From: Bolinopsis microptera
Lineage: Eukaryota > Ctenophora > Tentaculata > Lobata > Bolinopsidae
Direction: 5' to 3'
Assembly (NCBI RefSeq): GCF_026151205.1
Contig: NW_026971778.1
Location: forward strand, 1 to 64,000
DNA: 64,000 bases
Shown here: in pieces, positions 5,433 to 50,331 of the stretch
Layout: every line of letters starts with the position of its first letter
Numbering within the stretch: the first letter of the stretch is position 1
Notes under the pieces: model-generated
Databases searched by the model: none
What the model saw: the letters and a program-made list of their open reading frames with translations, nothing else
Told to the model about the DNA's origin: nothing
Translations under genes and position numbers: made by a program

Positions 5433-6005
5433 TCAATGGTGGGCATGGTACTTGATGTGCTTTGCTAGTTTAAAGATACCATCGCTGTTTAGATGCACAT
5501 TGTCTTCCCCAAATCTACTAAAACAAGATGATTTCCTAAATCCAGATCTATCACTAAACAAAAATCGATTCATCTCTGTGGGTATAAAGCTAACAAACGA
5601 GTATTTGGAAGGAATCTTAGATAAAAAGATATTGATGTCATTTATCACTTTATTTCTAGCAAAACTTTCTCTTGGTAAAATGTTTATGATCTTAATTTTT
5701 GCAGCTGGAGCCCACGAGTGAAGTGACTGGATCAGATTATCAATAGAGCGATTGGTGTTATCAAGGGCCTTTGCTTTTCCTGTGAACTCATCGGGTGACA
5801 ATAATCTATTCCTCATGTGTCGAGGACTCTCTAGGATTAAGTCTACATCATTAGTTCCACACATGAGTACGATGGTCTTCACATTATTTGCATCAATTGA
5901 CCTCTTTCTTTCATCTGAGTGGAAGCGTTCATTGATACCGTTTGCAATGCCACCAGGATAGTGAAATACATGTGCTTCTTGATGAGCAGAGGATCCCAGT
6001 GACAT
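5433..6005 (-). pseudogene. LINE-C ORF1, C-terminal SGNH-hydrolase part
   Basis: This frame holds the C-terminal part of ORF1, separated from its N-terminal part by the insert at 5995-6676. SGNH-like blocks are visible: YPGGIANG, then VLMCGTNDVD (block III, GTND) and DNVHLNSDG (block V, D..H). The nucleophile block I probably lies in the upstream part as VSSSMF, with GDS reduced to SSS. Esterase domains are known in ORF1 of CR1-like LINEs. The first four residues of this frame come from the insert, so the apparent start is not genuine. Confidence 0.8.
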
Positions 6006-6676
6006 AAAGTGAGGAATCTAAGAATCTAATTCCTAGCCATATTAATTTCCATAGCCACGCCGACTAATTTTTGTCAACAAAATTATTAAATCAACTTTAA
6101 AATAGTCGCTCTCGGTTGTTACACACTGTAACGCCGCGCACTGTACTTTAATTTTATATTTATCCGAGAAGATGTTCGAATCGAGCGCAAATGCCAGATT
6201 CCTGCAGGATCCTAGTTCTTGCGCTTAACTTGCGCGTTACCAAATAATCCAAGATATTTCTGTCAGGATCCAAGATTTTCCTACTACCAGTATGGTAGTA
6301 TGGACTGTTTGGTAGTATGGTAGTATGGTAGTTGCAGGAACGCGCGAAGATCTATATGTAAATATTACGAAAGCGTACATGGAATCGTAGCCTAGCCGGT
6401 TAATCCGTCGGTACTATGGTAGCAGATCGCGAGTTCGAGACCCGGAAAGGAATTCTTTCACAATCTTTTGGCAATTATGAATAACTATACTAATGAATTA
6501 ATAACTATACTAATGAATAACTAAACCTCTGTAATATAACTAGCAAAGTAAAATAAAATCGTTATCCGGCCGCGGAGCGGCCGAAAAATTTATGGTAGTC
6601 GTTTTAAAAATATATGGTAGCCGTTTTTTCTTTCCAGACTGGATTCCTAGTCCCTTTTTAAATTTATGTCACTGGG
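5995..6676. mobile_element. 682-bp non-autonomous hAT-like element, copy 1
   Basis: Both ends carry the perfect 14-bp inverted repeat CCCAGTGACATAAA. The 8-bp duplication CAGAGGAT flanks it at 5987-5994 and 6677-6684. A near-identical copy sits at 49649-50331. The interior has TATGGTAGT-rich sequence, a tRNA-like segment and a perfect GC palindrome (CGGCCGC-GGA-GCGGCCG) near 6568. There is no transposase ORF, so it must be moved in trans. An 8-bp target duplication is typical of the hAT superfamily. It splits LINE-C ORF1. Confidence 0.88.
6388..6450 (+). other. tRNA-like (A box/B box) segment in the 682-bp element
   Basis: TAGCCTAGCCGG resembles a pol III A box. GAGTTCGAGACC, about 43 bases later, resembles a B box, and CCCGG follows. 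The cloverleaf was not completed, so this is a tRNA-derived promoter-like remnant rather than a tRNA gene. The copy at 50045-50100 keeps the B box but has changes in the A box. Confidence 0.4.
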
Positions 6677-7733
6677 CAGAGGATAGTTTTGTAGCATCTA
6701 ACTTGGAGAACATGCTTGAGCTAACATACACAGCAAGGGATTTGCTTTTGACTGAAGCAGGGGGTACGGTGCTCTTATGAGTGATTTTGTTGGGTGATGA
6801 TTTCCCTTTGATTGAGGGTTCAGTTTCTCTTACAGTAACGAAAGGCTTACTTGAGGTATCGGGTGGAGCAGACAAGGTTGCACTGCCATCAATCTGGCGC
6901 AGAGTAATGCTAATTCTCATGTCATCAGTATGGTCCTGAATAAGGCTGTGTTCAAAGCTGTCCTGAGATTTTCTGGTCATAATCATTATGTCGCCATGGG
7001 AGAGAGTAAGATTGGCAACGTGGACTTTGCTTTTAGACCTAAAACTGAGGACTCTTGTTGCTCCTAACGATATGGTGGAAATCATGGAGCCTGGTGATAT
7101 GGACCTCTCATCATCTGAATGGAATGGTATTCCTTGCTTGCCATTTTCATACTTGGTGATCATGGCGCTGTTAAATTTCAGACTTGGGAACTGTGAGCGT
7201 AAACGTTCTAAAATAGACTTTAATAAGGGATTGTCATTTAACGGCCTTGTGTTATGGAAGCCTCCATTGTAGGCATATGGGAAATCCCCATAGTATGCTA
7301 CAGCCCTATTGTTGAACGTTTGTGTGTATTGTGTTTCCATATCCAACTTGAGAGTATCAATAAACCTGAATACACCTCGACTCAAATCATGATATGGATT
7401 GATGGACTTACCCACAACATTAACACTGGTTGAAGATTGTTTGTTAACATCAGAAGAATTCACAAGAGATGGGTTGCTATTAAGTTCAGTCACACTGCTA
7501 ACTTCACAGTTTTGAGTTTCTGATTCATGTTCAGAGATAAGAACATTGTCCCCGCAAGAGAATGGAACCGCAATTTTGTCATGGCCTGAGCCTTGGGTAA
7601 GTTTGGTTAGACGAGCAATTTGTCTCCTCAAATTGTCGTTTTCAAGACTTAGTGATACACAGGTAGAACATTTTGCTTTTGCACTGTTAGGTCTGTCACG
7701 AAGGCTGTAATTTCTGATTGGGATACCGGACAT
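6669..7733 (-). pseudogene. LINE-C ORF1, N-terminal AlkB-like dioxygenase part
   Basis: The 5' part of LINE-C ORF1 begins MSGIPIRNYSLRDRP. An early CSTC and a short coiled stretch precede an AlkB-type 2-oxoglutarate/Fe(II) dioxygenase fold at about residues 120-280. The iron ligands are visible as FHSDDE (HxD) and FEHSLI (distal His). The 2-oxoglutarate motif is RISITLR (RxSxTxR, close to the AlkB RxNxTxR). Known AlkB enzymes oxidatively demethylate alkylated nucleic acid bases; that this one acts on LINE RNA is inference. A Ser/Lys/Pro-rich linker leads to the SGNH part. The reading frame is broken near 6684 by the hAT-like insert, and the last residues are insert-derived. Confidence 0.85.
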
Positions 7734-11936: not shown

Positions 11937-12265
11937 GTGTCGCACTACGATCCAGGTAGCGTACTTTTGACTTTACCGCGACAGTGTCGATTTTGGAGGT
12001 TTCGCACTTGGGTACGTGTCGCACTAGAGTACGTGAACCTCCTATCCGGGCGCAAATGGTTCACGTACTGTAGTATGTGCGACACGTACCCTAGTGTGTA
12101 GGCTTACAACCTACCAGGACGCGCGCCGAGTTGGACGCCTGGACGGTCCAATATCAAATATATGGAACAGATATTTTAAGAGTATCACCCGTTTAACCCT
12201 AGTGCGAAACCTCCAAGATCGACACTGTCGCTACCTGGATCGTAGTGCGACAAGTACCCTATTTG
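11937..12265. repeat. Imperfect inverted repeat (foldback) of GTCGCACTA motifs
   Basis: The left arm (11937-12043) holds GTAGCG, GCGACAGTGTCGAT, GGAGGTTTCGCACT and GTACGTGTCGCACTA. The reverse complements appear in reverse order in the right arm (12056-12265). An ~80-bp interruption lies at about 12105-12190. This looks like a degraded foldback or MITE. Confidence 0.6.
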
Positions 12266-12396: not shown

Positions 12397-12488
12397 TTGT
12401 ATCACGTGGTGACCCCCACTGTCGCTTCACTATAGTCGACGATACAGGGGCCGGAGCCGCGCACTTCGTGTAATACAACGTATGACAA
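12397..12488 (+). mobile_element. ~100-bp palindromic hAT-like MITE, copy 3
   Basis: Begins TTGTATCACG and ends CGTATGACAA, with the CCCCCACTGTCGCTTCACTA interior. The right side of the GC hairpin is missing (GCCGCGCACTTCGTG runs straight to TAATACAACG). The flanks do not form an 8-bp duplication, so this copy is probably older or rearranged. Confidence 0.65.
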
Positions 12489-12693
12489 GATATATCCTAG
12501 GGGAATCCTATCTAATTCAGAAGACGTTTCCCTGTATTTTGTAGTGGATTTTGTAGTGGATTTTGCGCGCCGCACGTACGTTAAAATATTTATCATTGTA
12601 GAATCTACGACGGTAGAAGTCAGAAGTTTCAATAAACTGCTCGTACTTATACTTTTATAGACACTTATAAGATATGAAAATCTAAGTAACACA

Positions 12694-15600
12694 TCCAACC
12701 CCACTCAGGCCGCCCATCCCAAAGTCCCAAATAACTTGAAATCTGTGACAAATCCCTAAAAATCCAGAATGAGAATCTTTACCCCTGGGCCTTGAAGGGG
12801 ATTTGTGTTGCTGAGTATTTGAAACATGTTTTGGTGGTTAAATATGTAGTACATATCCCAAACCATCACAAAGACCAAGTTTTAAGCTCTTGAACCACTC
12901 AAGCCACTCCCAGAGGCAATGCCAATCCCAAAATTACTGAAATCCAGCTAAAATCCAGACTTTAAAATCTTTACCCCTGTAGTGCTTTTATGTTCCGGGT
13001 AGGTGGGACATGTTTTAGTTTTAAAATGGGTTCTGCCTGTCCCAAACCATCATAAAAATCAAGTTTCGACCTCTCAACCCACTCGGGCCACTCCCAGGGG
13101 CCACGCCCATCCCAAAATGACCGAAATCCAGCTAAAATCCAGACTTTAAAATCTTTACCCCTGTAGTGCTTTTATGTTCCGGGGTAGGTGGGACATGTTT
13201 TAGTTTAAAAATGGGTTCTGCCTGTCCCAAACCATCATAAAAATCAAGTTTCGACCTCTCAACCCACTCGGGCCACTCCCAGGGAAAACGCCCATCCCAA
13301 AATGACCGAAATCCAGCTAAAATCCAGACTTTAAAATCTTTACCCCTGTAGTGCTTTTATGTTCCGGGGTAGGTGGGACATGTTTTAGTTTAAAAATGGG
13401 TTCTGCCTGTCCCAAACCATCATAAAAATCAAGTTTCGACCTCTCAACCCACTCGGGCCACTCCCAGGGGCCACGCCCATCCCAAAATGACCGAAATCCA
13501 GCTAAAATCCAGACTTTAAAATCTTTACCCCTGTAGTGCTTTTATGTTCCGGGGTAGGTGGGACATGTTTTAGTTTAAAAATGGGTTCTGCCTGTCCCAA
13601 ACCATCATAAAAATCAAGTTTCGACCTCTCAACCAACTCGGGCCACTCCCAGGGGCCACGCCCATCCCAAAATGACCGAAATCCAGCTAAAATCCAGACT
13701 TTAAAATCTTTACCCCTGTAGTGCTTTTATGTTCCGGGGTAGGTGGGACATGTTTTAGTTTTAAAATGGGTTCTGCCTGTCCCAAACCATCATAAAAATC
13801 AAGTTTCGACCTCTCAACCCACTCGGGCCACTCCCAGGAGCCACGCCCATCCCAAAATGACCGAAATCCAGCTAAAATCCAGACTTTAAAATCTTTACCC
13901 CTGTAGTGCTTTTATGTTTCAGGGTAGGTGGGACATGTTTTAGTTTAAAAATGGGTTCTGCCTGTCCCAAACCATCATAAAAATCAAGTTTCGAACTCTC
14001 AACCCACTCGGGCCACTCCCAGGGGCCACGCCCATCCCAAAATGACCGAAATCCAGCTAAAATCCAGACTTTAAAATCTTTACCCCTGTAGTGCTTTTAT
14101 GTTCCGGGGTAGGTGGGACATGTTTTAGTTTAAAAATGGGTTCTGCCTGTCCCAAACCATCATAAAAATCAAGTTTCGACCTCTCAACCCACTCGGGCCA
14201 CTCCCAGGGGCCACGCCCATCCAAAAATGACCGAAATCCAGCTAAAATCCAGACTTTAAAATCTTTAACCCTGTAGTGCTTTTATGTTCCAGGGTAGGTG
14301 GGACATGTTTTAGTTTAAAAATGGGTTCTGCCTGTCCCAAACCATCATAAAAATCAAGTTTCGACCTCTCAACCCACTCGGGCCACTCCCAGGGGCCACG
14401 CCCATCCCAAAATGACCGAAATCCAGCTAAAATCCAGACTTTAAAATCTTTACCCCTGTAGTGCTTTTATGTTCCGGGGTAGGTGGGACATGTTTTAGTT
14501 TAAAAATGGGTTCTGCCTGTCCCAAACCATCATAAAAATCAAGTTTCGACCTCTCAACCCACTCAGGCCACTCCCAGGGGCCACGCCCATCCCAAAATGA
14601 CCGAAATCCAGTTAAAATCCAGACTTTAAAATCTTTACCCCTGTAGTGCTTTTATGTTCCGGGGTAGGTGGGACATGTTTTAGTTTAAAATGGGTTCTGC
14701 CTGTCCCAAACCATCATAAAAATCAAGTTTCGACCTCTCAACCCACTCGGGCCACTCCCAGGGGCCACGCCCATCCCAAAATGACCGAAATCCAGCTAAA
14801 ATCCAGACTTTAAAATCTTTACCCCTGTAGTGCTTTTATGTTCCGGGGTAGGTGGGACATGTTTTAGTTTTAAATGGGTTCTGCCTGTCCCAAACCATCA
14901 TAAAAATCAAGTTTCGACCTCTCAACCCACTCGGGCCACTCCCAGGGGCCACGCCCATCCCAAAATGACCGAAATCCAGCTAAAATCCAGACTTTAAAAT
15001 CTTTACCCCTGCAGTGCTTTTATGTTCCGGGGTAGGTGGGACATGTTTTAGTTTAAAAATGGGTTCTGCCTGTCCCAAACCATCATAAAAATCAAGTTTC
15101 GACCTCTCAACCCACTCGGGCCACTCCCAGGGGCCACGCCCATCCCAAAATGACCGAAATCCAGCTAAAATCCAGACTTTAAAATCTTTACCCCTGTAGT
15201 GCTTTTATGTTCTGTGGTAGGTGGGACATGTTTTAGTTTTAAAATGGGTTCTGCCTGTCCCAAACCATCATAAAAATCAAGTTTCGACCTCTCAACCCAC
15301 TCGGGCCACTCCCAGGGGCCACGCCCATCCCAAAATGACCGAAATCCAGCTAAAATCCAGACTTTAAAATCTTTACCCCTGTAGTGCTTTTATGTTCCGG
15401 GGTAGGTGGGACATGTTTTAGTTTAAAAATGGGTTCTGCCTGTCCCAAACCATCATAAAAATCAAGTTTCGACCTCTCAACCCACTCGGGCCACTCCCAG
15501 GGGCCACGCCCATCCCAAAATGACCGAAATCCAGCTAAAATCCAGACTTTAAAATCTTTACCCCTGTAGTGCTTTTATTCTCCGGGGTAGGTGGGACATG

Positions 15601-16979
15601 TTTTAGTTTAAAAATGGGTTCTGCCTGTCCCAAACCATCATAAAAATCAAGTTTCGACCTCTCAACCCACTCGGGCCACTCCCAGGGGCCACGCCCATCC
15701 CAAAATGACCGAAATCCAGCTAAAATCCAGACTTTAAAATCTTTACCCCTGTAGTGCTTTTATGTTCCGGGGTAGGTGGGACATGTTTTAGTTTAAAAAT
15801 GGGTTCTGCCTGTCCCAAACCATCATAAAAATCAAGTTTCGACCTCTCAACCCACTCGGGCCACTCCCAGGGGCCACGCCCATCCCAAAATGACCGAAAT
15901 CCAGCTAAAATCCAGACTTTAAAATCTTTACCCCTGTAGTGCTTTTATGTTCCGGGGTAGGTGGGACATGTTTTAGTTTAAAAATGGGTTCTGCCTGTCC
16001 CAAACCATCATAAAAATCAAGTTTCGACCTCTCAACCCACTCGGGCCACTCCCAGGGGCCACGCCCATCCCAAAATGACCGAAATCCAGCTAAAATCCAG
16101 ACTTTAAAATCTTTACCCCTGTAGTGCTTTTATTCTCCGGGGTAGGTGGGACATGTTTTAGTTTAAAAATGGGTTCTGCCTGTCCCAAACCATCATAAAA
16201 ATCAAGTTTCGACCTCTCAACCCACTCGGGCCACTCCCAGGGGCCACGCCCATCCCAAAATGACCGAAATCCAGCTAAAATCCAGACTTTAAAATCTTTA
16301 CCCCTGTAGTGCTTTTATGTTCCGGGGTAGGTGGGACATGTTTTAGTTTTAAAATGGGTTCTGCCTGTCCCAAACCATCATAAAAATCAAGTTTCGACCT
16401 CTCAACCCACTCAGGCCACTCCCAGGGGCCACGCCCATCCCAAAATGACCGAAATCCAGCTAAAATCCAGACTTTAAAATCTTTACCCCTGTAGTGCTTT
16501 TATGTTCCGGGGTAGGTGGGACATGTTTTAGTTTAAAAATGGGTTCTGCCTGTCCCAAACCATCATAAAAATCAAGTTTCGACCTCTCAACCCACTCGGG
16601 CCACTCCCAGGGGCCACGCCCATCCCAAAATGACCGAAATCCAGCTAAAATCCAGACTTTAAAATCTTTACCCCTGTAGTGCTTTTATGTTCCGGGGTAG
16701 GTGGGACATGTTTTAGTTTAAAAATGGGTTCTGCCTGTCCCAAACCATCATAAAAATCAAGTTTCGACCTCTCAACCCACTCGGGCCACTCCCAGGGGCC
16801 ACGCCCATCCCAAAATGACCGAAATCCAGCTAAAATCCAGACTTTAAAATCTTTACCCCTGTAGTGCTTTTATGTTCCGGGGTAGGTGGGACATGTTTTA
16901 GTTTAAAAATGGGTTCTGCCTGTCCCAAACCATCATAAAAATCAAGTTTCGACCTCTCAACCCACTCGGGCCACTCCCC
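12694..16979 (+). repeat. 185-bp satellite array, forward arm (~23 monomers)
   Basis: Landmark GTGGGACATGTTTTAG recurs every 185 bases from about 13003 to 16890. Interior monomers differ at only a few positions. The leftmost copies (12694-12990) are clearly divergent, as expected at an array edge that escapes homogenisation. There are no long ORFs. The landmark CCACTCCCAGGGGCCACGCC lies in every unit. Confidence 0.95.
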
Positions 16980-17320
16980 ACTTGGGATGGGCGTGGCCCC
17001 TGGGAGTGGCCCGAGTGGGTTGAGAGGTCGAAACTTGATTTTTATGATGGTTTGGGACAGGCAGAACCCATTTTTAAACTAAAACATGTCCCACCTACCC
17101 CGGAACATAAAAGCACTACAGGGGTAAAGATTTTAAAGTCTGGATTTTAGCTGGATTTCGGTCATTTTGGGATGGGCGTGGCCCCTGGGAGTGGCCCGAG
17201 TTGGTTGAGAGGTCGAAACTTGATTTTTATGATGGTTTGGGACAGGCAGAACCCATTTTTAAACTAAAACATGTCCCACCTACCCCGGAACATAAAAGCA
17301 CTACAGGGGTAAAGATTTTA
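16980..17320 (-). repeat. 185-bp satellite array, start of the inverted arm
   Basis: At 16979 the array turns into its own reverse complement. CCACTCGGGCCACTCCC is answered by GGGAGTGGCCCGAGTGG after a spacer of about 23 bases. About 1.8 monomers follow before the 4.0-kb insertion at 17321. Confidence 0.93.
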
Positions 17321-18998
17321 GGGCACTTTCAAAAACATCTGTCACGGAAAAAATGTTAAAATTTGTCAAAAATCAGTTTTTGTGGCATAATTTGGTGGAT
17401 AATTTTTGGAACGGGATGAAACTTCAGGATATGGTGTGCTAAACCCCAACCTTTACTATCTGCCACTTTTTGTTTCGATTTAGGGCTAAATCTGGTGGAT
17501 AAAAGTGAAACAGACCAATCCACTTCAGGTGGCCTTTAAAAATATTTAATTCCATCTAAACTCCTAAAATATGATTGAGACTTATAAATAATCGTTATAA
17601 CTTCACAATTTCATATGTAGGGCCGGGATTTTTCTTAAGGGCCAAATTTGGTGGATATATTTTTTTACCTCTTTTTTAAGACTGTTATTTGTTAGCTAAC
17701 ATCAATTTACTGGTCTTAAAATGGTGCAAAGGCAATGTTAAATCTATGGCATCAACTATAAAGTTCGAGATTCAAGTGAAAAGGCTATTTTTGGTGGATA
17801 TAATGATGTTAATTAGTTAAACACGTAAATGCTACCAAAATATCAATAAATAAGACATTATCATGATTAGAAACAGTTGAAAAAGATGAAATATAGGATG
17901 TTGAACATTAATATAAAAGGTAGTATGGTATTTTAAGCTTTTAGGGCCAATTTGGTGGATAATTAACTCAAAAATACTTAAAATATCGACCTGGATATTT
18001 TGATATCCATCAATTTTGGCCTTAAAAGTCGGCTTGAGCTTATCACATTTTGTGCTGAACAAGAAAAAGGTCTAAACAAACCAATATCAGTGTATGATTT
18101 CATAATTTAGCAAATCTAAGGCCAAAAATAGTGGATAAAAAAGCAAATTTAACCGTTTTTAAGCTAATTTCTTAGGCATTTATCCACCAAAAACGGCCCT
18201 AAATGGAGAATGTTTGGAACGTTTACTTGAAACTATAGCCCTCCTTTACGACCTCAGAGCAATAATTTTAAGCTATTTTAACTTTGGGATGGAATAATTT
18301 ACGATTAAAAGTGGATAACATACGTTATCAGTAAAGAAATCGTTATTTCAATCGCTGAGGTAGGTTATTCACATTTAATATCCACCAAATTGGGCCTCAA
18401 AAGGCAGGTTTCGGTTATTATTTTATAAGGTCACCCAGAAAATGGTCTAAACTAACTAAAATCATTCATGATTTCAAAATTGAACAAATCTAGGGCCAAA
18501 TATAGTGGATACAAAAGCAAATTTTCCCGTTTTAGAGCTTTTATCCACCAAAAACATCTCTAAAGGCTGAAAGGAAACAGTTTGTTAAGTTCGTATGAAA
18601 CTATATCCATTCATTATGGCCCTAGAGCAATAATTGTATACATTTTCAGCTTCTAGACGAGATAATTGGGGTCTAACAATGGATAACCTGAATTATTGAC
18701 ACAGAATTTGACTTAAAAATAAAATCAATCTTGAAGCTCCAATATATCCACCAAAAATGGCCTAAAAATTAAATCTTCTATGCTGTCATAAACTTGAAAC
18801 GATTTCCAACCTGATACGTTCACTGAGTAAAGCTGGTGAACTTGTTGACCAATATAATTTTTTCAGTTGAAAATTTTCGGTATTGAATTTTATTTCATCG
18901 TTTTATTATCCACCATATCTAGCCTTAAAATTGAAATCTTTCTTTTTTTTCGCCTTTTATCATAGAGGCATATCGATTTGCTACAATTCTATCTTTAA

Positions 18999-21036
18999 AG
19001 GACCAGTTAACTGAAAAATTTGTAGTCTCCAATTTGGCTAAGATTTAAATCAGCTGTGACAAACTGGTAAAGAATCGTATCGCCGAAAGAACCAACTCTC
19101 TATCGTACGTGTAACGCGTGTTATTGCAATAATAAGCTGTGGCCTCGTGACGTCATAAAGTCCCTCAGTGCGCGCTTGCATAGCGTAATTTACATTACAA
19201 ATGTTTATCATCGTCAATAAAACACATGTAACTCACTCAAATTTTAGAATTATGACTATTACCCTAGTTCTCCAAAATCCTTATAGTTTTGGCTATCATT
19301 CTAACTAAAGGAATAGCTGATTGGATGTACAGTGCTCACGTCATGATTTTAAACAGTGATATAGGTTCTTGAACAGTGGCGGGTGAATGTACGGTTAGAA
19401 AGTTTCTGCTATTACAACTTATGTCATATGTGATAATTTTGGATTGCTTTCATTGCTTAATTACACAAGCAGCTAGGGAGACTGTACCGATTATTTTTGT
19501 CCATGAAACTCTAACGAATTTAGAAAGGATCTAGATAAGTAGGAGTTTGTTCAATTCCGAGAGCAATTATATTTATAGCATATAGCGAAATTTATAACTT
19601 TAATCCGCATGTGTCAGCCAGTGCCCAGTACAGGAGACAAGAAGTCTGGCTACTTTACGGCCGTTCCTCTGGGACCATTAGTAGAAGTAGCTTCTATCAG
19701 AACAGTGCCGTGGGAACAGAATTCCCGCCAAAATACCTGGTCTCGGGTCTACCAAACAGTAATACTGTTCGGAGTGTACGGTGTGCAGTGTGTTTTGAAT
19801 TAGACTTACGGCTTACCTAGTTGTTATCCTAATTGCATTATCATCGGTACATAACATAAATAAACTACTGGTAAGTTTAAATACCAAGTGCAAACGTGTT
19901 CAGTCAATCGACCCACTGAACAATTATAGAATTTCCAAGACCCTATTATTCTCTAGCCATATATTACGGCACGATCGATTGTTAGATGGCTAAACGACCA
20001 ACGTTATAATCTATACAATTCTAAAACTATGAGCTAGCACTTTAATCTAAAAATACACTTTTTATATTACTCCTGATTTTTACATTTCACGTAAAACATT
20101 GTCGCCACAGGTTGATCATGGACACTAACAGCTTAATTTGAGATAAATGACTTATGACTTTCTCTAAAGTTAACTCTTAAGTTGTGTACTCCAGTCATTT
20201 ATGGACATTTATGGAAATGAACCTGCAAATGTTCAAATACTCTCGAAACTTTGCACAGACCTTCCTTAAGGTATGAATAAACGATTTTCGTTTGGAGACA
20301 TTTTTTTGACCGTGGAGAAAACCCAGGAGGGCCACGCCCATATTGACCCAATAACGTAACCGACCCCTTGCTTCTGAAGGTCGTAGAGGCTTCAAAATAG
20401 GCTTAAACGAAGCCGCATATGCATATTTATATAGGATTTATTGAGCAACACATGGCCTAAAATCCTTACTTTTCGAGAAATTCGCCAAAAACCATTTTGG
20501 GCGTGGTGCTGAGCCCATTTTCGATAGGATCGTGATAGAGTCTTTAGACAGGGTGCAAAAGAACCGCAATTAGCATATTAATATATGACTTACGAACAAA
20601 CATATGCCTTAAAGTGCTTACTTTTTCAGTTATTGGCGAAAAACTGATTTTCGGTTCCAGAAATCATACAAAACTATGGGTATCTGGTAACTTGGGCTAT
20701 GAAGGCCCTAAAGGTTTTTGAATGTGTGCAAATTGTGCAGAATGGCCATGTTTATATACAACTTATGAAGCAACATGTACCCTAAATTACTTACTTTTCG
20801 AGTTATTTGGGGGAAAAGATTGTATTATGTCCATTTTCTACCTGTAAAATACAGTCTCACGAGCTCTTCTGCGCGCGGGAGGGACTTTATGACGTCATCG
20901 CCAAAATAATACAAACGCTATTTACACGCGTTAGAGAGCAGTTAGAGATTTAGGAATTTCGACTCGTTGCTTAGTTTGCTATTTGTCACAATGTGTCAAA
21001 ATATGAGGATAACTTTTTTTTCAGTTAACTGGTCCT
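18999..21036. mobile_element. 2.04-kb TTAA-flanked TIR element nested inside
   Basis: Terminal repeats AGGACCAGTTAACTGAAAAA face each other. TTAA lies on both sides (18995-18998 and 21037-21040). Subterminal inverted stretches continue: CTCTCTA..GTGTAACGCG and GACGTCATAAAGTCCCTC at ~19095-19165, mirrored at ~20875-20940. TTAA duplication is diagnostic of piggyBac or Kolobok insertion. No long ORF is present, so the element is non-autonomous. Three diverged internal repeats lie at about 20400-20815. Confidence 0.82.
20400..20815 (+). repeat. Three diverged ~175-bp internal repeats
   Basis: Blocks at about 20405-20500, 20560-20650 and 20730-20815 share a layout. Each has a GCATAT/CATGTTTATAT stretch, then a CAACATG/CACATGGCC-like stretch with CTTACTTTTCGAG, then TTGGCGAAAA. 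They lie within the 2.04-kb TTAA element and are not coding. Confidence 0.55.
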
Positions 21037-21327
21037 TTAAATAATCACCATAAATTAACCACACGTAAAGTTACAGGCCAACAAATGATATATCCACCAA
21101 ACCCCTCTGAAAAGTATATCCACCATTATTAGCCCTGATTTAAATGCGTGTATCTCTGCTCATAGATATAGTAGACATTTGATTCTTTTTGTAAAAGTTG
21201 AACTATCGCAAATCCTATGCTGAAAAAAAGTTTAATCAAAATATTGAGTTTATCCACCAAATGAGAGCTTCTAGAAGTTGAAATTTTTCCCGTGACAGAT
21301 TCGTTAACATAGTTTTTGAAAGTGCCC

Positions 21328-24110
21328 TTTAAAGTCTGGATTTTAGCTGGATTTCGGTCATTTTGGGATGGGCGTGGCCCCTGGGAGTGGCCCGAGTGGG
21401 TTGAGAGGTCGAAACTTGATTTTTATGATGGTTTGGGACAGGCAGAACCCATTTTTAAACTAAAACATGTCCCACCTACCCCGGAACATAAAAGCACTAC
21501 AGGGGTAAAGATTTTAAAGTCTGGATTTTAGCTGGATTTCGGTCATTTTGGGATGGGCGTGGCCCCTGGGAGTGGCCCGAGTGGGTTGAGAGGTCGAAAC
21601 TTGATTTTTATGATGGTTTGGGACAGGCAGAACCCATTTTTAAACTAAAACATGTCCCACCTACCCCGGAACATAAAAGCACTACAGGGGTAAAGATTTT
21701 AAAGTCTGGATTTTAGCTGGATTTCGGTCATTTTGGGATGGGCGTGGCCCCTGGGAGTGGCCTGAGTGGGTTGAGAGGTCGAAACTTGATTTTTATGATG
21801 GTTTGGGACAGGCAGAACCCATTTTTAAACTAAAACATGTCCCACCTACCCCGGAACATAAAAGCACTACAGGGGTAAAGATTTTAAAGTCTGGATTTTA
21901 GCTGGATTTCGGTCATTTTGGGATGGGCGTGGCCCCTGGGAGTGGCCCGAGTGGGTTGAGAGGTCGAAACTTGATTTTTATGATGGTTTGGGACAGGCAG
22001 AACCCATTTTTAAACTAAAACATGTCCCACCTACCCCGGAACATAAAAGCACTACAGGGGTAAAGATTTTAAAGTCTGGATTTTAGCTGGATTTCGGTCA
22101 TTTTGGGATGGGCGTGGCCCCTGGGAGTGGCCCGAGTGGGTTGAGAGGTCGAAACTTGATTTTTATGATGGTTTGGGACAGGCAGAACCCATTTTTAAAC
22201 TAAAACATGTCCCACCTACCCCGGAACATAAAAGCACTACAGGGGTAAAGATTTTAAAGTCTGGATTTTAGCTGGATTTCGGTCATTTTGGGATGGGCGT
22301 GGCCCCTGGGAGTGGCCCGAGTGGGTTGAGAGGTCGAAACTTGATTTTTATGATGGTTTGGGACAGGCAGAACCCATTTTTAAACTAAAACATGTCCCAC
22401 CTACCCCGGAACATAAAAGCACTACAGGGGTAAAGATTTTAAAGTCTGGATTTTAGCTGGATTTCGGTCATTTTGGGATGGGCGTGGCCCCTGGGAGTGG
22501 CCCGAGTGGGTTGAGAGGTCGAAACTTGATTTTTATGATGGTTTGGGACAGGCAGAACCCATTTTTAAACTAAAACATGTCCCACCTACCCCGGAACATA
22601 AAAGCACTACAGGGGTAAAGATTTTAAAGTCTGGATTTTAGCTGGATTTCGGTCATTTTGGGATGGGCGTGGCCCCTGGGAGTGGCCCGAGTGGGTTGAG
22701 AGGTCGTAACTTGATTTTTATGATGGTTTGGGACAGGCAGAACCCATTTTTAAACTAAAACATGTCCCACCTACCCCGGAACATAAAAGCACTACAGGGG
22801 TAAAGATTTTAAAGTCTGGATTTTAGCTGGATTTCGGTCATTTTGGGATGGGCGTGGCCCCTGGGAGTGGCCCGAGTGGGTTGAGAGGTCGAAACTTGAT
22901 TTTTATGATGGTTTGGGACAGGCAGAACCCATTTTTAAACTAAAACATGTCCCACCTACCCCGGAACATAAAAGCACTACAGGGGTAAAGATTTTAAAGT
23001 CTGGATTTTAGCTGGATTTCGGTCATTTTGGGATGGGCGTGGCCCCTGGGAGTGGCCCGAGTGGGTTGAGAGGTCGAAACTTGATTTTTATGGTGGTTTG
23101 GGACAGGCAGAACCCATTTTTAAACTAAAACATGTCCCACCTACCCCGGAACATAAAAGCACTACAGGGGTAAAGATTTTAAAGTCTGGATTTTAGCTGG
23201 ATTTCGGTCATTTTGGGATGGGCGTGGCCCCTGGGAGTGGCCCGAGTGGGTTGAGAGGTCGAAACTTGATTTTTATGATGGTTTGGGACAGGCAGAACCC
23301 ATTTTTAAACTAAAACATGTCCCACCTACCCCGGAACGTAAAAGCACTACAGGGGTAAAGATTTTAAAGTCTGGATTTTAGCTGGATTTCGGTCATTTTG
23401 GGATGGGCGTGGCCCCTGGGAGTGGCCCGAGTGGGTTGAGAGGTCGAAACTTGATTTTTATGATGGTTTGGGACAGGCAGAACCCATTTTTAAACTAAAA
23501 CATGTCCCACCTACCCCGGAACATTAAAGCACTACAGGGGTAAAGATTTTAAAGTCTGGATTTTAGCTGGATTTCGGTCATTTTGGGATGGGCGTGGCCC
23601 CTGGGAGTGGCCCGAGTGGGTTGAGAGGTCGAAACTTGATTTTTATGATGGTTTGGGACAGGCAGAACCCATTTTTAAACTAAAACATGTCCCACCTACC
23701 CCGGAACATAAAAGCACTACAGGGGTAAAGATTTTAAAGTCTGGATTTTAGCTGGATTTCGGTCATTTTGGGATGGGCGTGGCCCCTGGGAGTGGCCCGA
23801 GTGGGTTGAGAGGTCGAAACTTGATTTTTATGATGGTTTGGGACAGGCAGAACCCATTTTAAAACTAAAACATGTCCCACCTACCCCGGAACATAAAAGC
23901 ACTACAGGGGTAAAGATTTTAAAGTCTGGATTTTAGCTGGATTTCGGTCATTTTGGGATGGGCGTGGCCCCTGGGAGTGGCCCGAGTGGGTTGAGAGGTC
24001 GAAACTTGATTTTTATGATGGTTTGGGACAGGCAGAACCCATTTTTAAACTAAAACATGTCCCACCTACCCCGGAACATAAAAGCACTACAGGGGTGAAA
24101 AGCACTACAA
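21328..24110 (-). repeat. 185-bp satellite array, rest of the inverted arm (~15 monomers)
   Basis: AAAGTCTGGATTTTAGCTGG recurs every 185 bases from 21331. It continues the array at 16980-17320 after the 4.0-kb insertion. Monomers are nearly identical, and the array runs straight into the right terminal repeat at about 24105. Confidence 0.95.
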
Positions 24111-24150
24111 ATCCACTACAAAAATCAAGGAAACGTGCTCTCATCTAATT

Positions 24151-25775: not shown

Positions 25776-33781
<8,006 letters not shown>

Positions 33782-37600: not shown

Positions 37601-39441
37601 GCCTGCAAATTGTTGATGTGAGATTAAACTTACACCTGTTGTAATAGTGCCTTGAAATGAACTGCAGCATTTAAAATTTTACAGTATTCAAAAAGTTGAA
37701 GTTCATTAATTCTGAATTTGTGTGTTGAATGAAAACCAACCTATTTGCTGTGTAGAAATCTATGGCATATTCTAAATGATTTGCAACAAAGTGTGTTAAC
37801 AATGAAGTTGCAATTTCCTTAAGAACATCTGAGCACGCTGTTTGGTCACTCAATAGCAGACATCTTTCAACTGCCTGTAAGAATAAATTGTATAATTATT
37901 GTATAATGTATTCTTCTACATTATACATGAGCATGGAACAACTATACAAACTATACAAACTATGTAAAGAAGATATATGATACATTGACGTTTATTATTT
38001 AAAATATGTACACATCACGTTTATAAATATGACAATTGGTTGACATATAATTTACCCGTTCATGAATTTTCAGAAGAGAGGTTGTTACATTGACGCTGAG
38101 AAGTTGGTCAGATGGCATTTCACTTGGCTCGTTGCTGAGCAGGTTGTTGCTACTTCCAATATTGTCTCGCAATTGATTAAACCGACTTTTAGCATTCTTG
38201 AGATGAACTTGAAGGGCATCAGAATGCAAATTCTTCTCATGCTTGATTGAATTATAGAACTGATTTAGGATTTCCTCTGATGCTTTGAGTAGATATTCTT
38301 TTTCAGTGTCACTGTATTTAGAAAGATATGAACAAAATATTGACTTCTTTATGTCATTAGCAAATGAAATGTCGTTATCATATTTTGAAAGATTTGATGA
38401 GAGCTCCATTGTCTGTGAATATAACTCTGCTAACGAGTCTAAAGACTGCTCAAGATCTTGAGATGATTGTTTTTCAGGTTCATCAAATGTATCCAGTTTA
38501 AGTGTAAGTCTCACTTTCTTCCAAATCTTGTCTTTGAATATTTTTTTGATAAACTTTGGCATGATAGTGTCATGATCTGAAAAAACTTTTGAAACTATCC
38601 CTGAAGTTTCATTGATACAATCTTTTATAGCTGAAAAAATGTTCTCACCGTAGAAAGGTGCCTTCAGCCTTGCATCAATAAAGTAATCAACAACCTCTTT
38701 ATAAGCTTGAAAACATGGTTGATTCAAAGTAGCAGCACATCTCTTCATATTCTCTAAATGTTCTTCATCAGTGTAATGATGTAAAGACATTTTGAAATCT
38801 TGAACTAACTGTTTTTCAATCTCATCAGTAATCCGTGTCACCACACCTTGTAACCTAGAAAAGTCTTTGCCACCTTTATCTGGTAAGTCTTGGGTCACGA
38901 GAGTAATCTTGTGAAGTACTCTTGCTGACTCATGTATATTAGTAACATCTGTGAAAATAGAGCTTGATATACTACCAGTCTTTTGTGCTTCGTTAATATA
39001 ATCAATCAATTCTTTTGCTTCTAGAGCACGTCTTCTTTTACCATCCATCTGCTTCAATTGATCACCCAAATGGACAACTTTTGTGGATACAAAATTGATA
39101 ACTTTATCCAAGTCCTGATATTGAGAGTCAACAACATTGAAAAACTGATCATGTTCCTTGGTCTTCCTCTTGAAAGATTCCTGCTTCTTAAGATTGATTT
39201 CTTCAACTCGCTGAACTTGTTTAGTTTTGTTTTCAAACTGAGTTTCAAGTTCTGTTAGCCTCATCTTCAATTGATCCCGTAGTGGCTTTGGATCAAACTC
39301 TGAGCCATTTTGACCAAGTATGACATTGTCTGTATTAGGTCTGGCAAGTTTTTCAATATAATGTTCTGGATTGAAGGGTTCCTCTTGAAATTGAGCACTC
39401 AATGTGTCTCTTGCACTATAGGAATCGAATGGATTGGCCAT
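34617..39441 (-). CDS. EXOC5: Exocyst complex component 5 (SEC10)
   Basis: Seven coding exons, in transcription order: 39441-38056, 37874-37741, 37602-37470, 37353-37219, 37040-36892, 35598-35487 and 34829-34617. Introns are GT-AG and the joined frame gives 753 residues (vertebrate EXOC5 708). The exocyst tethers secretory vesicles to the plasma membrane; Sec10 bridges to Sec15. Recognisable conserved stretches are VSTKVVHLGDQL near residue 130, the Sec10-type run MMELGVRFHGAL, and the C-terminal FVKLRADYR. The large first exon holds the N-terminal coiled coil (LETQFENKTKQVQRVEEINL). The protein is divergent but ungapped over the conserved blocks. A splice acceptor (ATTATTCAG) lies 13 bases before the ATG, implying a 5'UTR intron or a trans-splice site. 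Confidence 0.92.
35085..35240. repeat. Dispersed repeat with poly-C tract, copy 1 (EXOC5 intron)
   Basis: GTTTCTAGAGCAAAACGCGC, TCATTCAAACGACGATTTGG and a following C-run (CCCCCCCCC) with CGTTACGCCACTG recur in the same order at 39855-40040. It is probably a non-autonomous repeat family. This copy lies in the last EXOC5 intron. Confidence 0.6.
35938..36858. mobile_element. 921-bp Tc1/mariner-like non-autonomous element
   Basis: Inserted at TA (35936-35937 and 36859-36860). Terminal repeats begin CAGGGTGGTCCAAAAGTC on the left and CAGGGTGTTTCAAGACTC on the right; this CAGGGTG..CAAAAGT type is common in mariner-like elements. It lies in EXOC5 intron 6. No transposase frame or DDE/DDD motif is visible, so it is an internally decayed or non-autonomous copy. 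Confidence 0.75.
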
Positions 39442-46972: not shown

Positions 46973-49666
46973 ATGTCGGAAAATCAAGTGAACAGTAGTG
47001 GACCACCTATCCCTAAGTTAGGAGATTCTTATCTTTTGTTCAAGAAAGAAGTGAAATTGTGGTCGGCAACCACATTGATCGAAGAAAAGCGTCAAGCAGG
47101 ATGTATTGTTTTTATGTTACCTCAGAAGGCTAAGTCTGAGGCAGTGGAAGTTCCACTTGAAGTATTACAAAATGGCAGAACAGACACAGTAGAAGGTGCT
47201 GAAGTAAAGACATCGGGATTAGACTGCCTCCTGGAGGTCCTTGATGGAATTTATCTTGAAGATTTGGCTAAGGAAAAGTTCAAGACTTATGACATGTTCA
47301 GAAAGTTAAGTCGGGAAGGAAGCCAAGATGTCAAGGAGTTTATTTCGTCATTCGAAAAAGTTGTAAAACGAATGGAAGAGCATGATATTAAGCTTCCACA
47401 ACCTGTTCTAGCGTATGAATTACTTAGAAGTTGTAATGTTAGTGATTACAAGTATTCTGTTGCCATTACTATGTGTGGCGACTTAACATACACTAACATG
47501 AAAGAAACGATAAAGAAGATCACAACTATGAAAGATCCAGAAAGTTCACACCAGAGAATGATTGGTGTAGTTAAAGAAGACTCTACATTTTATACTGGTA
47601 ACTCCTGTATTGAAAATCAGTTTAATATGTATGATGAATACGAAAATGAAAATGAAGTACTGAATGCTCAGGAAATGGAGCAGCATGCATATTACAGCCA
47701 AGGAAGAAGTGGCTATTCGGGAAGAGGATACCGGGGATATGGCTTTAGAAGAGGAAATGGTAGAGGAGCCAGAGGATACCGACAACAGAATCAACAGCAG
47801 GAAAGTCAACATCAGGTAGCTGCGGGTGTCAGAAGTGACAGAAAAATGAACCCAACAGACAAATATGGGCGGCATTTTACTTGTAATGTTTGCAAGTCGA
47901 TTTACCACTTTTCTAGAGATTGTCCAGAACGCCGCAGAATAAACAAAAGTGGAAATCAGGTAACGAGTGAGAATGTAAATCTCTTTATGAATGCTCCTGC
48001 CCAAGAAGAGAACTCAAATGTTATGGACCAATTTACCAGTGACAACTTTGGGTTAGCAGTTCTTGACAGTGGATGCAACAAAACGGTTTGTGGAAAGGAA
48101 TGGTTGAAAGTCTATCTTCAGTCGCTGTCTCCAGAAGATTTCATTAAGGTGTGCTATGAAGAGAAACATGTATCGTTTAAATTTGGAGATAATGCACCAT
48201 CAAAGTCAAGGACATGCTGCACATTCCCAGCCGTTGTATGTGACAAACAGGTGAACATTGTGGCACAAGTTGTTGATGATCAGATTCCATTACTGATTAG
48301 CAAACAGTCAATGAAAGATGCTAGAATGGTATTGGACTTTGGAGATGACACAGTGAAGGCTTTTGGTGTAAAGCAGAAAATCATCTTCAATGAATCAGGA
48401 CACTGTAGCATCCCTCTGAGCAAGAATACTATCCATCAACAAGTCTGCTTATGTAAATCAGGAGAGGAAATTGTAAACCTGACCATGGAAAGTACTGACA
48501 AAAGAAAGATAGCGATTAAGCTACATAAGCAATTCGCCCATCCCCCACCTGAAAAGTTAAAGTCACTCTTAAGAACAGCAGGACAGCTTACCAAGGAAAT
48601 TGCTCGAGAGATTGACACAGTATCGTCTAACTGTGATGTGTGCAAGAGATACAAGCGACCGAATAATCGTCCAGTAGTCTGTATGCCTTTAGCCAAAGAC
48701 TTCAATGATACCGTTGCCATGGATATTAAGGTGTACGACAAGAATAAAAACATTTACATCCAGCACATGATTGACCATAAAACCAGATTCTCTGCTGCAA
48801 AAGTTATCAGGTCAAAAGACAAGGAAACCATTGTGGAAAGTGTCTTTACACACTGGATCAACACTTTTGGACCACCGAAGAAGTTCATGAGTGACAATGG
48901 AGGGGAATATGTTAACAAAAGTTTTGTTGACCTCTGTGAGAAATTCAACGTTCATATCATCACTACTGGAGCTGAAGCACCTTGGAGCAATGCCCTTGTA
49001 GAACGGCACCATGCCCTTTTGTCTAACAGTATGATAAAGATCATGGAAGATACTAAATGCTCAGTTGAAGTTGCTTTAGCATGGGCCTGTCATGCCAAGA
49101 ACACTTTGGCAAATGTAAATGGTTTCTCGCCATATCAGTTAATCTTTGGCAAAAATCCATCTCTCACTTCTATTGATGATCCCTATGCTAGTCCAACGAT
49201 TGTTGAAGATGAGAGTCCAAGTGAAACTGTTGCCAAGAACATCTCTGCCATCTACAGTGCTCGAAAAAGAATGATGGAAAGCGAAGCTAGTGAGATGATC
49301 AGACGAGCCATTAGATCAAAAACTAGAGAAGTGTACACTGATGAGATACAGTCGGGTGATATGGTATACTACAAAAGAAATGATGATAAGCGATGGCGAG
49401 GACCAGGAACAGTTATAGGTGTGGACAAGAAAGTTGTAGTTGTAAGACATGGTGGGTATATTGTTCGATGCCACCGGATTCATGTTGTCAATGTAAATGA
49501 ACTGTACTCAAAAGATGTTTCCGAAGTAAGTGGGACCGATCCACCAGATGAGCCTAATCCCACTGTTGAAGAATTTTACAATGCAACTCAAATGCTGAAA
49601 AATGATGTTCTGTTGAACGCTTTCGATATTGCTCCTGCTGAAGAGGATCCCAGTGACATAAAGTGA
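46973..49666 (+). pseudogene. Copia gag-protease-integrase part
   Basis: The 897-residue frame holds a GAG region (LWSATTLIEEKRQAG) and an RG-rich stretch (YSGRGYRGYGFRRGNGRG) near residue 255. The zinc knuckle CNVCKSIYHFSRDC (CX2CX4HX4C) follows. The protease active site is LDSGCNKTVCG. The integrase has an HHCC zinc region (HKQFAHPP to CDVCKRYK) and the D,D,E catalytic residues in AMDIKV, SDNGGEY and VERHH. The frame continues past 49648 only for a few residues of the hAT-like insert (DPSDIK). The break separates integrase from RT, so the copy is not functional although each part is open. Confidence 0.88.
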
Positions 49667-50331
49667 GGAATCTAAGAATCTAATTCCTAGCCATATTAAT
49701 TTCCATAGCCACGCCGACTAATTTTTGTCAACAAAATTATTAAATCAACTTTAAAATAGTCGCTCTCGGTTGTTACACACTGTAACGCCGCGCACTGTAC
49801 TTTAATTCTATATTTATCTGAGAAGATGTTCGAATCGAGCGCAAATGCCAGATTCCTGTCAGGATCCTAGTTCTTGCGCTTAACTTGCGCGTTACCAAAT
49901 AATCCAAGATATTTCTGTCAGGATCCAAGATTTTCCTACTACCAGTATGGTAGTATGGACTGTTTGGTAGTATGGTAGTATGGTAGTTGCAGGAACGCGC
50001 GAAGATCTATATGTAAATATTACTAAAGCGTACATGGAATCGTATCCTAGTCGGTTAATCCGTCGGTACTATACTAGCAGATCGCGAGTTCGAGACTCGG
50101 AAAGGAATTTTTTCACAATCTTTTGGCAATTATGAATAACTATACTAATGAATTAATAACTATACTAATGAATAACTAAACCTCTGTAATATAACTAGCA
50201 AAGTAAAATGAAATCGTTATCCGGCCGCGGAGCGGCCGAAAAATTTATGGTAGTCGTTTTAAAAATATATGGTAGCCGTTTTTTCTTTCCAGACTGGATT
50301 CCTAGTCCCTTTTTAAATTTATGTCACTGGG
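49649..50331. mobile_element. 683-bp non-autonomous hAT-like element, copy 2
   Basis: Same CCCAGTGACATAAA inverted ends and nearly the same interior as copy 1 at 5995-6676. The 8-bp duplication AAGAGGAT lies at 49641-49648 and 50332-50339. It differs from copy 1 by scattered substitutions, some in the tRNA-like segment. Confidence 0.88.

Follow-up and report, generated by a model that had tools for sequence, protein, structure and literature searches.

Tetris of Drosophila virilis is a non-autonomous foldback element whose inverted ends contain tandem repeats of ~220 bp in variable number, and it was suggested that its long arrays disrupt transposition and then become free satellite (PMC4079207; statements on published systems rest, here and below, on the accessible parts of the cited papers). 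Target motifs of terminal-inverted-repeat elements have been generalised as palindromes centred on the target site duplication (PMC3276498, PMC4168063). The former survey, as far as its accessible text goes, took its motifs from the 3 bp adjoining the duplication left and right, which could let a more distant one escape. Foldbacks with tandem-repeat arms are already known (Tetris, Galileo and FB); the non-autonomous foldback family described here, from the ctenophore Bolinopsis microptera, is new, and the open-licence literature, searched through titles and the starts of abstracts, gave no report of it.

Within the window (the whole 64-kb stretch of DNA analysed), positions 12518–24142 of the forward strand are one copy of a foldback DNA transposon, 11,625 bp long, with satellite arrays as its arms and inverted tips as its outermost borders. 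The original prediction of two opposed 185-bp arrays, imperfect inverted ends and a perfect 8-bp repeat proved exact in its coordinates. The left tip, CAGAAGACGTTTCC (12518–12531, forward strand), and the right tip, GAGAGCACGTTTCC (complement; 24129–24142, reverse strand), are imperfectly inverted, and GTAGTGGATTT lies next to the tip inside both ends. The left end continues on the forward strand with a subterminal tandem repeat of ATTTTGTAGTGG (12536–12565) and with GCGCGCC (12565–12571), centred at about +49. Then comes the left arm (12856–16978, forward strand), in which the 185-bp monomer is repeated 22.3 times with 98% matches and which meets the right arm at an inverted-repeat centre almost without a unique loop (16979–16981). 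The right arm, on the reverse strand, consists of an inner part of 1.8 copies (16982–17320) and an outer part of 15 copies (21328–24096), both with 99% matches, and the satellite cargo of the element amounts to ~7 kb. Long inverted tandem-repeat arms between short inverted tips are present, which places the element in the foldback class (FB/Galileo/Tetris-type). As read by eye, the right arm is interrupted by a 4-kb nested insertion (17321–21327) with inverted ends GGGCACTTTC and many TATCCACCA-type repeats, bordered by TTTA repeats (17317–17320 and 21328–21331); it holds in turn a further element (18999–21036), which is flanked by TTTAA left and right and has AGGACCAGTTAACTG as its inverted ends.

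The 8-bp target site duplication, ATCTAATT, lies directly outside both borders on the forward strand (12510–12517 and 24143–24150). By itself this 8-mer is weak proof, because it or its complement occurs nine times within the window; its significance comes from its position plus an empty site on another contig, C74. There, in a locus of 5,006 bases, the two flanks are joined at a single ATCTAATT. Across the junction 990 of 1012 bases are identical to the window, as are 530 of 555 in the next piece leftwards; C74 departs from the window in two places, with a 7-bp indel close to the junction and ~630 additional bases around window position 12190. An empty site with a single ATCTAATT had been proposed as a check, and its discovery bears out the claim that the block transposed as one unit.

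Sister copies are found throughout the genome. Searches with the exact tips gave 105 matches for the left (1 for the reversed control) and 101 for the right (8 for the reversed control), and each of the 13 large contigs carries sister ends. These 13 contigs make up 258.07 of the 264.65 Mb of the assembly. Receptor matches favoured a ctenophore source over Nematostella: of three receptors searched, one, a glutamate receptor, matched ML032222a at 5e-125, another had ML032222a as its best match at 1e-61, and the third, which was truncated, was closest to vertebrate kainate receptors, ML032222a coming next. A right tip lies within 25 kb for 71 of the 100 listed left tips, and the paired elements span up to 21 kb, nested insertions included. 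Of these pairs 63 were read: the 8-bp duplication is perfect in 40, each with a different sequence, and the 8-mers are mismatched in 19; a ninth base would match in 6 of 40 and 4 of 40, which is the chance level. Copies with common ends and differing 8-bp duplications, which had also been proposed as a check, exist. In all 20 perfect pairs of the second set read, the subterminal repeat is of the same type at both ends (GTATGCG in 11, GTAGTGG in 5 and GTAGGGG in 4). The interior of the left end, used as a query, matched at 40 places, with 40 of 96 candidates scored, and by eye every one of these lies at or inside a family position; 13 of 20 sampled element interiors contain satellite at least partly, the other 7 none. 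We are fairly confident of the joint reading that this is a non-autonomous foldback, that its arrays largely pre-existed, that its left end is joined one way under GCGC guidance and that its arms turn over in length.

The family could instead be an ordinary hAT transposon with nothing special except its arms, a possibility that we place a little short of even. The length of the duplication (8 bp, perfect in 40 of 63 pairs) and the CAG at the start of the element favour it. hAT elements carry the terminal consensus (C/T)A(A/G)NG at both ends; here the left tip, CAGAA, is without the G at position 5 and the right tip, GAGAG, without the first pyrimidine, and a related nested family has tips CAGAG and GAGGC. 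The duplications, however, are unlike nTnnnnAn, the consensus given for hobo (hAT) in the accessible part of PMC3276498: position 2 is A in 20, C in 11, T in 7 and G in 2, and position 7 is A in 14, T in 11, C in 8 and G in 7 (n=40). The genome does hold hAT dimerisation domains (150 scored matches, 150 of 365 candidates), two of them on the inward side of left tips that are without a paired right tip (C9:12530258 and C6:20317583), at distances of 5.7 and 10.9 kb, but none lies inside a paired element, and for 98 left tips the first 20 kb inward contain 2 matches, near the 1.1 expected from density. Genome searches with hAT, MULE, KDZ and P-type domains placed none of the matches found inside a paired element. 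The MULE transposase had 88 matches, none within an element and only one less than 20 kb from a left tip, 8.3 kb outside C10:274467; neither the P/THAP9-type RNase H domain PF21787 nor the KDZ domain (Zisupton-type) PF18758 matched the genome, with controls likewise silent everywhere. The sampled interiors yielded no transposase: seven open frames from them gave a reverse transcriptase, a fragment of a 7TM receptor and five without Pfam match.

A pattern emerged in the flanks of the foldback family: most insertions lie ~48 bp from GCGC/CGCG, with the left end facing this core. We know of no hAT precedent for such an offset rule. Among non-redundant sites, 41 of 57 left flanks have the core centred 46–50 bp from the end, compared with 0 of 53 right flanks; when each left flank was rotated, 5.9 sites qualified on average and 15 at most in 2000 trials. 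The main peak spans ~3 bp and is one-sided, and members of the family usually lie 47–49 bp from the core. Clustering on the left side was first noticed in 29 left flanks and repeated in 35 further ones, where hits at 40–80 bp numbered 159 on the left versus 6 on the right. The exact distance holds in 21 of 27 sites of the first set and 20 of 30 of the second, the 48-bp offset being derived from all 57 sites jointly and the split being a prior test of the left-side cluster only. It is obeyed by 32 of 40 elements with perfect duplications; of the 16 sites (of 57) without a core at the exact distance, 12 have none at 30–80 bp, and secondary peaks lie near 20 and 60–80 bp. The copy in the window is an exception (57 bp), since the CGCGC of its left flank (12458–12462) is centred 57–58 bp from the junction, a distance that is 7 bp greater in the C74 empty site owing to the indel. 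The rule is not visible from a single window. Most left ends have a core of their own, at about +49: among 35 newly read ones it is at offset 48–51 in 23 and at 37–39 in 2, and is missing in 10. The insertions at C4:9114303 and C7:8932462 obey the rule with a left end that is without GCGC, so the internal core is either not strictly required or was later lost.

We propose that a transposition complex, formed by the transposase or by a carried host DNA-binding protein, would bind GCGC in the left end (~+49) as well as the matching GCGC of the target (~−48), and that binding at both sites would lead to joining of the left end at a fixed distance and in a single orientation. We infer this chemistry, because the transposase was not found. 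Alternatively, GCGC may mark open, positioned chromatin (a promoter, a nucleosome edge or a loop anchor), the transposon following accessibility only. The secondary peaks, which resemble a structured target, and the report that >90% of loop-anchor promoters in Mnemiopsis have a DNA transposon insertion (PMC12221973, accessible part) are consistent with this. We nevertheless hold it to be unlikely, because accessibility alone gives no orientation, whereas the ~3-bp peak is one-sided with a fixed facing end; also, a tRNA scan (bacterial code) of 54 loci found none within 300 bp of an end, and 20 left-end loci had no Rfam match.

A specific form of GCGC-guided joining is homotypic tethering, in which a single protein would recognise GCGC both in the left end and in the host, or would pair with a molecule bound to the host GCGC, and would thereby fix the insertion at 48 bp in one orientation. 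The ctenophore loop-anchor system CTEP1/CTEP2 binds GC-rich two-CpG motifs at loop anchors, and makes the obvious candidate for this role; the transposon would then exploit the looping machinery of the host and settle beside promoters and enhancers. The candidate link between the −48 core and the loop-anchor motif is suggestive, and we offer tethering only tentatively, as an idea that may well prove wrong. If true, it could explain why loop promoters are rich in DNA transposons; if the target is the ctenophore loop-anchor motif, this richness becomes directly testable.

Other features of the flanks were also considered. Pol III targets were rejected: the scan of 54 loci with the bacterial code found one tRNA (tRNA-Gly, ~325 bp outside the right end of locus L023), and none of 20 left-end loci matched an Rfam family. 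Z-DNA was rejected as the recognised feature, since 11 of 41 cores are merely GCGC, considered too short. As to a possible gene start immediately right of the insertion, the first ATG frames in 30 right flanks showed no pattern. Open frames of at least 55 aa run outward in 106 and inward in 99 cases on the left, and outward in 86 and inward in 101 on the right; Pfam matches were found in 4 of 8 scanned flank frames (on the left two outward and one inward, on the right one inward).

The divergence noted at the left edge of the window's array holds family-wide. Across 21 elements, the median difference between the first full left monomer and the inner monomers of its own element is 12%, and first left monomers differ between elements by 7%; the right edge is without divergence (0.5%). 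We suggest that the arrays would largely predate the dispersal of the copies, and that arm length would change by unequal exchange with partial local homogenisation. Growth in place, with small elements inserting first and most of the satellite never having travelled, appears improbable to us, although several observations favour it. Four compact copies (427, 615, 615 and 728 bp), with roughly two to four directly oriented monomers, do exist, but the sites of all four are copies of a single original insertion site. Monomers of one element are somewhat closer to each other (median difference 1.1% in the same arm and 2.2% in the other arm) than to those of other elements (2.7–3.3%), in a comparison that covers mainly the outer ~1.5 kb of each arm, with five elements read whole. 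In addition, the position of the inversion centre varies among three copies compared. On the other hand, monomers of the right arm are nearly as similar between elements (0.5–1.1%) as within them (0–0.5%); for left-arm monomers 2–6 the values are 2.2–2.7% and 1.6%. The nearest neighbour belongs exclusively to another element for 109 of 355 monomers and exclusively to the same element for 69, with 177 tied. Growth in place is weakened by this result, because few local founder monomers predict much tighter grouping.

The proposal that the element seeds free satellite DNA has so far not been borne out. The satellite matches listed (of 358; 35 of 240 candidates scored) fall into 20 loci, all bounded by element ends: both ends are present in 19, one of which has a truncated left tip, and the remaining locus has a left end only, in a survey that covers the assembly, from which heterochromatin may be absent. 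That the block arose by satellite expansion in situ or by misassembly, with the 8-bp repeat there by chance, is highly improbable, for although the window sits on a small contig (84 kb) and long arrays misassemble easily, the empty site, the ~100 sister ends (nearly all listed ones on chromosome-sized contigs) and the 40 different perfect duplications argue against it, leaving doubt about array length only.

Among known systems Galileo, of the P superfamily, resembles the ctenophore family in its long inverted ends, its 7- or 8-bp duplications and one copy with tandem repeats in ends of >4 kb (PMC4168063, accessible part). It differs in its target motif, which within the 93 bp examined is a 15-bp palindrome with the duplication at its centre, and in its P superfamily transposase; here PF21787 had no match, with a control silent everywhere. 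Tetris shares the 8–10 bp duplications, the lack of a detected transposase and a compact, tip-sharing relative (DAIBAM), but has three structurally complete copies and ends of up to 1.7 kb, and the accessible part of PMC4079207 mentions no target motif at an offset. The ctenophore family, by comparison, has intact tips with perfect duplications in 40 of 63 pairs and spans of up to 21 kb, and no free array among the satellite matches listed. Its multi-kilobase arrays are cargo of intact transposons, and comparison of monomers suggests that they largely travelled with them, so long arrays alone may not block transposition.

Tn7 with TnsD and the CRISPR-associated transposons insert in one orientation and a fixed distance away from a site that they recognise; they are bacterial, multi-protein systems whose ends are not known to carry the target motif. 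To our knowledge, the end of TRE5-A of Dictyostelium likewise carries no motif matching its target. TRE5-A is similar in its narrow offset, ~47 bp from the recognised feature, but it is a non-LTR retrotransposon, not a cut-and-paste element, that targets tRNA genes, with the Pol III machinery proposed to be involved (PMC5391098, accessible part). Dada is, like the present family, a eukaryotic DNA transposon with sequence-specific targeting, but it lands inside the recognised RNA gene, with 6–7 bp duplications and, in the accessible part of PMC3706591, no distance to a motif. The open-licence literature, as far as its titles and abstract starts tell, holds no eukaryotic cut-and-paste transposon with a target motif that is one-sided and at a fixed distance. 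Judged from the sequence, the GCGC target motif of the ctenophore family is distant, one-sided and apparently orienting, and is also present in the element's own end, unlike the centred palindromes.

The foldback block occupies window positions 12518-24142 (11,625 bp), with its left tip, CAGAAGACGTTTCC, on the 12518 side and its right tip, GAGAGCACGTTTCC on the opposite strand, on the 24142 side. GTAGTGGATTT lies slightly inward of both ends, and ATCTAATT immediately flanks the block on both outer sides. The left arm consists of 22.3 copies of the 185-bp monomer; the right arm carries the monomer in inverted orientation, as 1.8 and 15 copies split by a nested 4-kb insertion, which itself contains a further insertion. 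The nested element (window 17321-21327) has inverted ends GGGCACTTTC and numerous TATCCACCA-type repeats, with TTTA duplicated around it, and the second-level element within it (window 18999-21036) has ends AGGACCAGTTAACTG with TTTAA on either side. Since the two opposed arrays are only ~3 bp apart, there is no space for a gene between the arms. The tips, arms and 8-bp flanking repeat bear out the original prediction of a foldback unit with opposed 185-bp arrays and inverted ends.

A search with the right flank of the block identified, at 99% identity, contig C74 of the same assembly, which joins both window flanks through one ATCTAATT. This is the empty site that the original prediction had called for, and it indicates that the block moved as one unit. 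C74 and the window are identical at 990 of 1012 bases over the junction, apart from a 7-bp indel near it, and at 530 of 555 in the adjoining piece. C74 most likely represents the other haplotype of the window locus, less likely a paralogous site, so that the animal sequenced would probably be polymorphic for the window insertion. Farther left, C74 (locus L070) also carries ~630 bases absent at window ~12184-12195, the second length difference between the two.

Across 264.65 Mb, of which 13 contigs of 15-26 Mb make up 258.07 Mb, exact matches to the left tip number 105, versus one for its reversed pattern, and those to the right tip 101, versus 8. Among the matches listed, which do not include the window copy, 71 of 100 left tips had a properly oriented right tip within 25 kb, three of the 71 being tandem left ends with one common right end. 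Counting nested insertions, the shortest paired element spans 218 bp and the longest 21 kb. Where both flanks were read (63 pairs), the 8-bp duplication was perfect in 40, with 40 different sequences, so the expected sister copies with the same ends and differing duplications do exist. It had one or two mismatches in four pairs and no match in 19. Those 19 comprise six copies of a single site bearing a 5-bp insertion, four pairs that are one base off and nine that are wholly unmatched. In the second, later set of pairs, the type of subterminal repeat was identical at both ends in all 20 perfect pairs, the pattern expected of a putative protein binding site kept in step; it was different, or absent from one end, in 9 of the 15 others.

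Some individual members deserve mention. The left end of one is present three times with 325-bp spacing (C5:13629799-13630449). Another member, 17.8 kb long (C10:14092801-14110582, locus L098) and perfectly duplicated at its target (ATGCACTA), includes part of a 7TM receptor (PF00001, E 4.7e-07, slightly below the curated cut-off), which is either a piece of a captured gene or a copy nested there. A further sister copy has its left end interrupted by another element (C7 ~9534275-9536780, loci L122 and L057; partly read) with opposed ~195-bp tandem repeats, ends CAGAGGATGTTTTC and GAGGCGATGTTTTC, and CTGAATTT on either side. Judged by the C/G mismatch at the first base, which it shares with the foldback family, this element probably belongs to a related family, likewise with satellite arms.

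During the duplication checks we noticed a one-sided cluster of GCGC outside the elements, and then sought it in further pairs. At 40-80 bp outside, the first set gave 106 matches in 29 left flanks versus 1 in 31 right flanks; in 35 further pairs the counts were 159 left versus 6 right. Dropping flanks that share a 20-mer reduced the left set from 64 to 57 and the right set from 61 to 53, with residual similarity limited to six weak matches among five flank pairs (longest 46 bp). At single-base resolution, the GCGC/CGCG centre lies 47-49 bp from the left junction. The core was present at 46-50 bp in 41 of the 57 left flanks and in none of the 53 right flanks. When the left flanks were rotated, 2000 trials gave 5.9 on average and never more than 15. 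Longer GCGCG runs are common at the core, GCGC alone being found in 11 of the 41. In the remaining 16 left flanks, a core lay at some other distance within 30-80 bp in four and was absent from that interval in twelve; the window copy is itself an exception, with its core at 57-58 bp. Several distinct insertions (C9:14738687, C11:7110695 and those at the CCGAG sites) have similar right flanks, near TTCGACACAAAAACCGAGAATACACCCT, which places some of the targets within a repeated family.

Because the motif is offset and one-sided, something bound at GCGC would position the left end and set the orientation. A core also occurs near +49 inside the left end, in 23 of 35 newly read ends, as the mirror image of the target core about the junction. 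Given that left end and target usually agree in both core and spacing, a single protein binding the two would be the simplest model. Two insertions without a core in the left end (C4:9114303 and C7:8932462) obey the rule, so the internal core is either not strictly required for target reading or was lost afterwards. A glutamate receptor of this genome matches receptor structures named ML032222a, a Mnemiopsis gene, at E 5e-125; just four distinct sequences score below 1e-40, three of ML032222a and one kainate-like receptor, from Pleurobrachia. Two more receptors were compared: ML032222a came first for one, and vertebrate receptors for the other, whose sequence was cut short. In Mnemiopsis, according to PMC12221973, loop anchors carry a GC-rich two-CpG motif bound by CTEP1 and CTEP2, and more than 90% of looping promoters contain a DNA transposon insertion, causality being called unclear there. 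We hypothesize that the foldback target core may be this ctenophore loop-anchor motif.

The history of the arms was approached through the monomers. In 25 elements (five whole, the remainder over the outer ~1.5 kb only; 355 of 388 full monomers assigned), the median difference was 1.1% within the same arm, 2.2% between an element's two arms and 2.7-3.3% from one element to another. The nearest neighbour of the 355 monomers was only in another element for 109, only in the same element for 69, and tied for 177. With two divergent subfamily elements left out of the position comparison, right-arm monomers differed by 0.5-1.1% between elements versus 0-0.5% within. Being nearly as alike between elements as within them, they suggest that the array largely predates the spread of the element and was to some extent homogenised locally. 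Divergence of the left-edge monomer, which the original prediction had noted in the window, holds across the family; the right-edge monomer is not divergent. Among the matches listed (part of 358, with 35 of 240 candidates scored) there were 20 satellite loci and no free 185-bp satellite: 19 had both element ends and one the left end only. Heterochromatin absent from the assembly could conceal free arrays.

Four compact copies of 427, 615, 615 and 728 bp have the family tips and about two to four monomers that are direct, not inverted. All four lie at duplicates of one original insertion site, and thus represent one lineage; they may be a pre-foldback form or a deletion derivative of the foldback. 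The compact copies at C1:13028101, C6:1170394, C10:8253976 and C2:3951603 (loci L078-L081), and others with CCGAG flanks, have their flanks in common, which implies a single insertion that was later amplified along with a larger repeat around it.

Elsewhere in the window, two minus-strand frames close to LINE-type reverse transcriptases, at 6669-7733 and 60070-62199, contain a 2OG-Fe(II) oxygenase (AlkB-like) domain (PF13532, E ~1e-18), to our knowledge an unusual domain in a retrotransposon frame; one of the two also has a weak GDSL-lipase match. The host gene for exocyst subunit Sec10 (PF07393, PF20667) lies at 37999-39441 on the minus strand. The window also contains a direct repeat (5988-6684 and 49642-50339, 98% identity), an inverted repeat (1445-2788 and 9463-8088, 96.5% identity) and a simple array of GAGAGGGGGTAT units (29423-29832).

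The satellite-armed foldback is a new family of a structural kind already known. One-sided targeting at 48 bp is a feature that specialists would not expect. Offset targeting occurs in Tn7-like bacterial elements. It is also known for the retrotransposon TRE5-A (PMC5391098). Dada transposons (PMC3706591) insert inside their target. For terminal-inverted-repeat elements, PMC3276498 describes palindromic target motifs centred on the duplication, with logos that cover just 3 bp on each side. Structural precedents for a foldback with satellite arms are Tetris (PMC4079207) and Galileo (PMC4168063).
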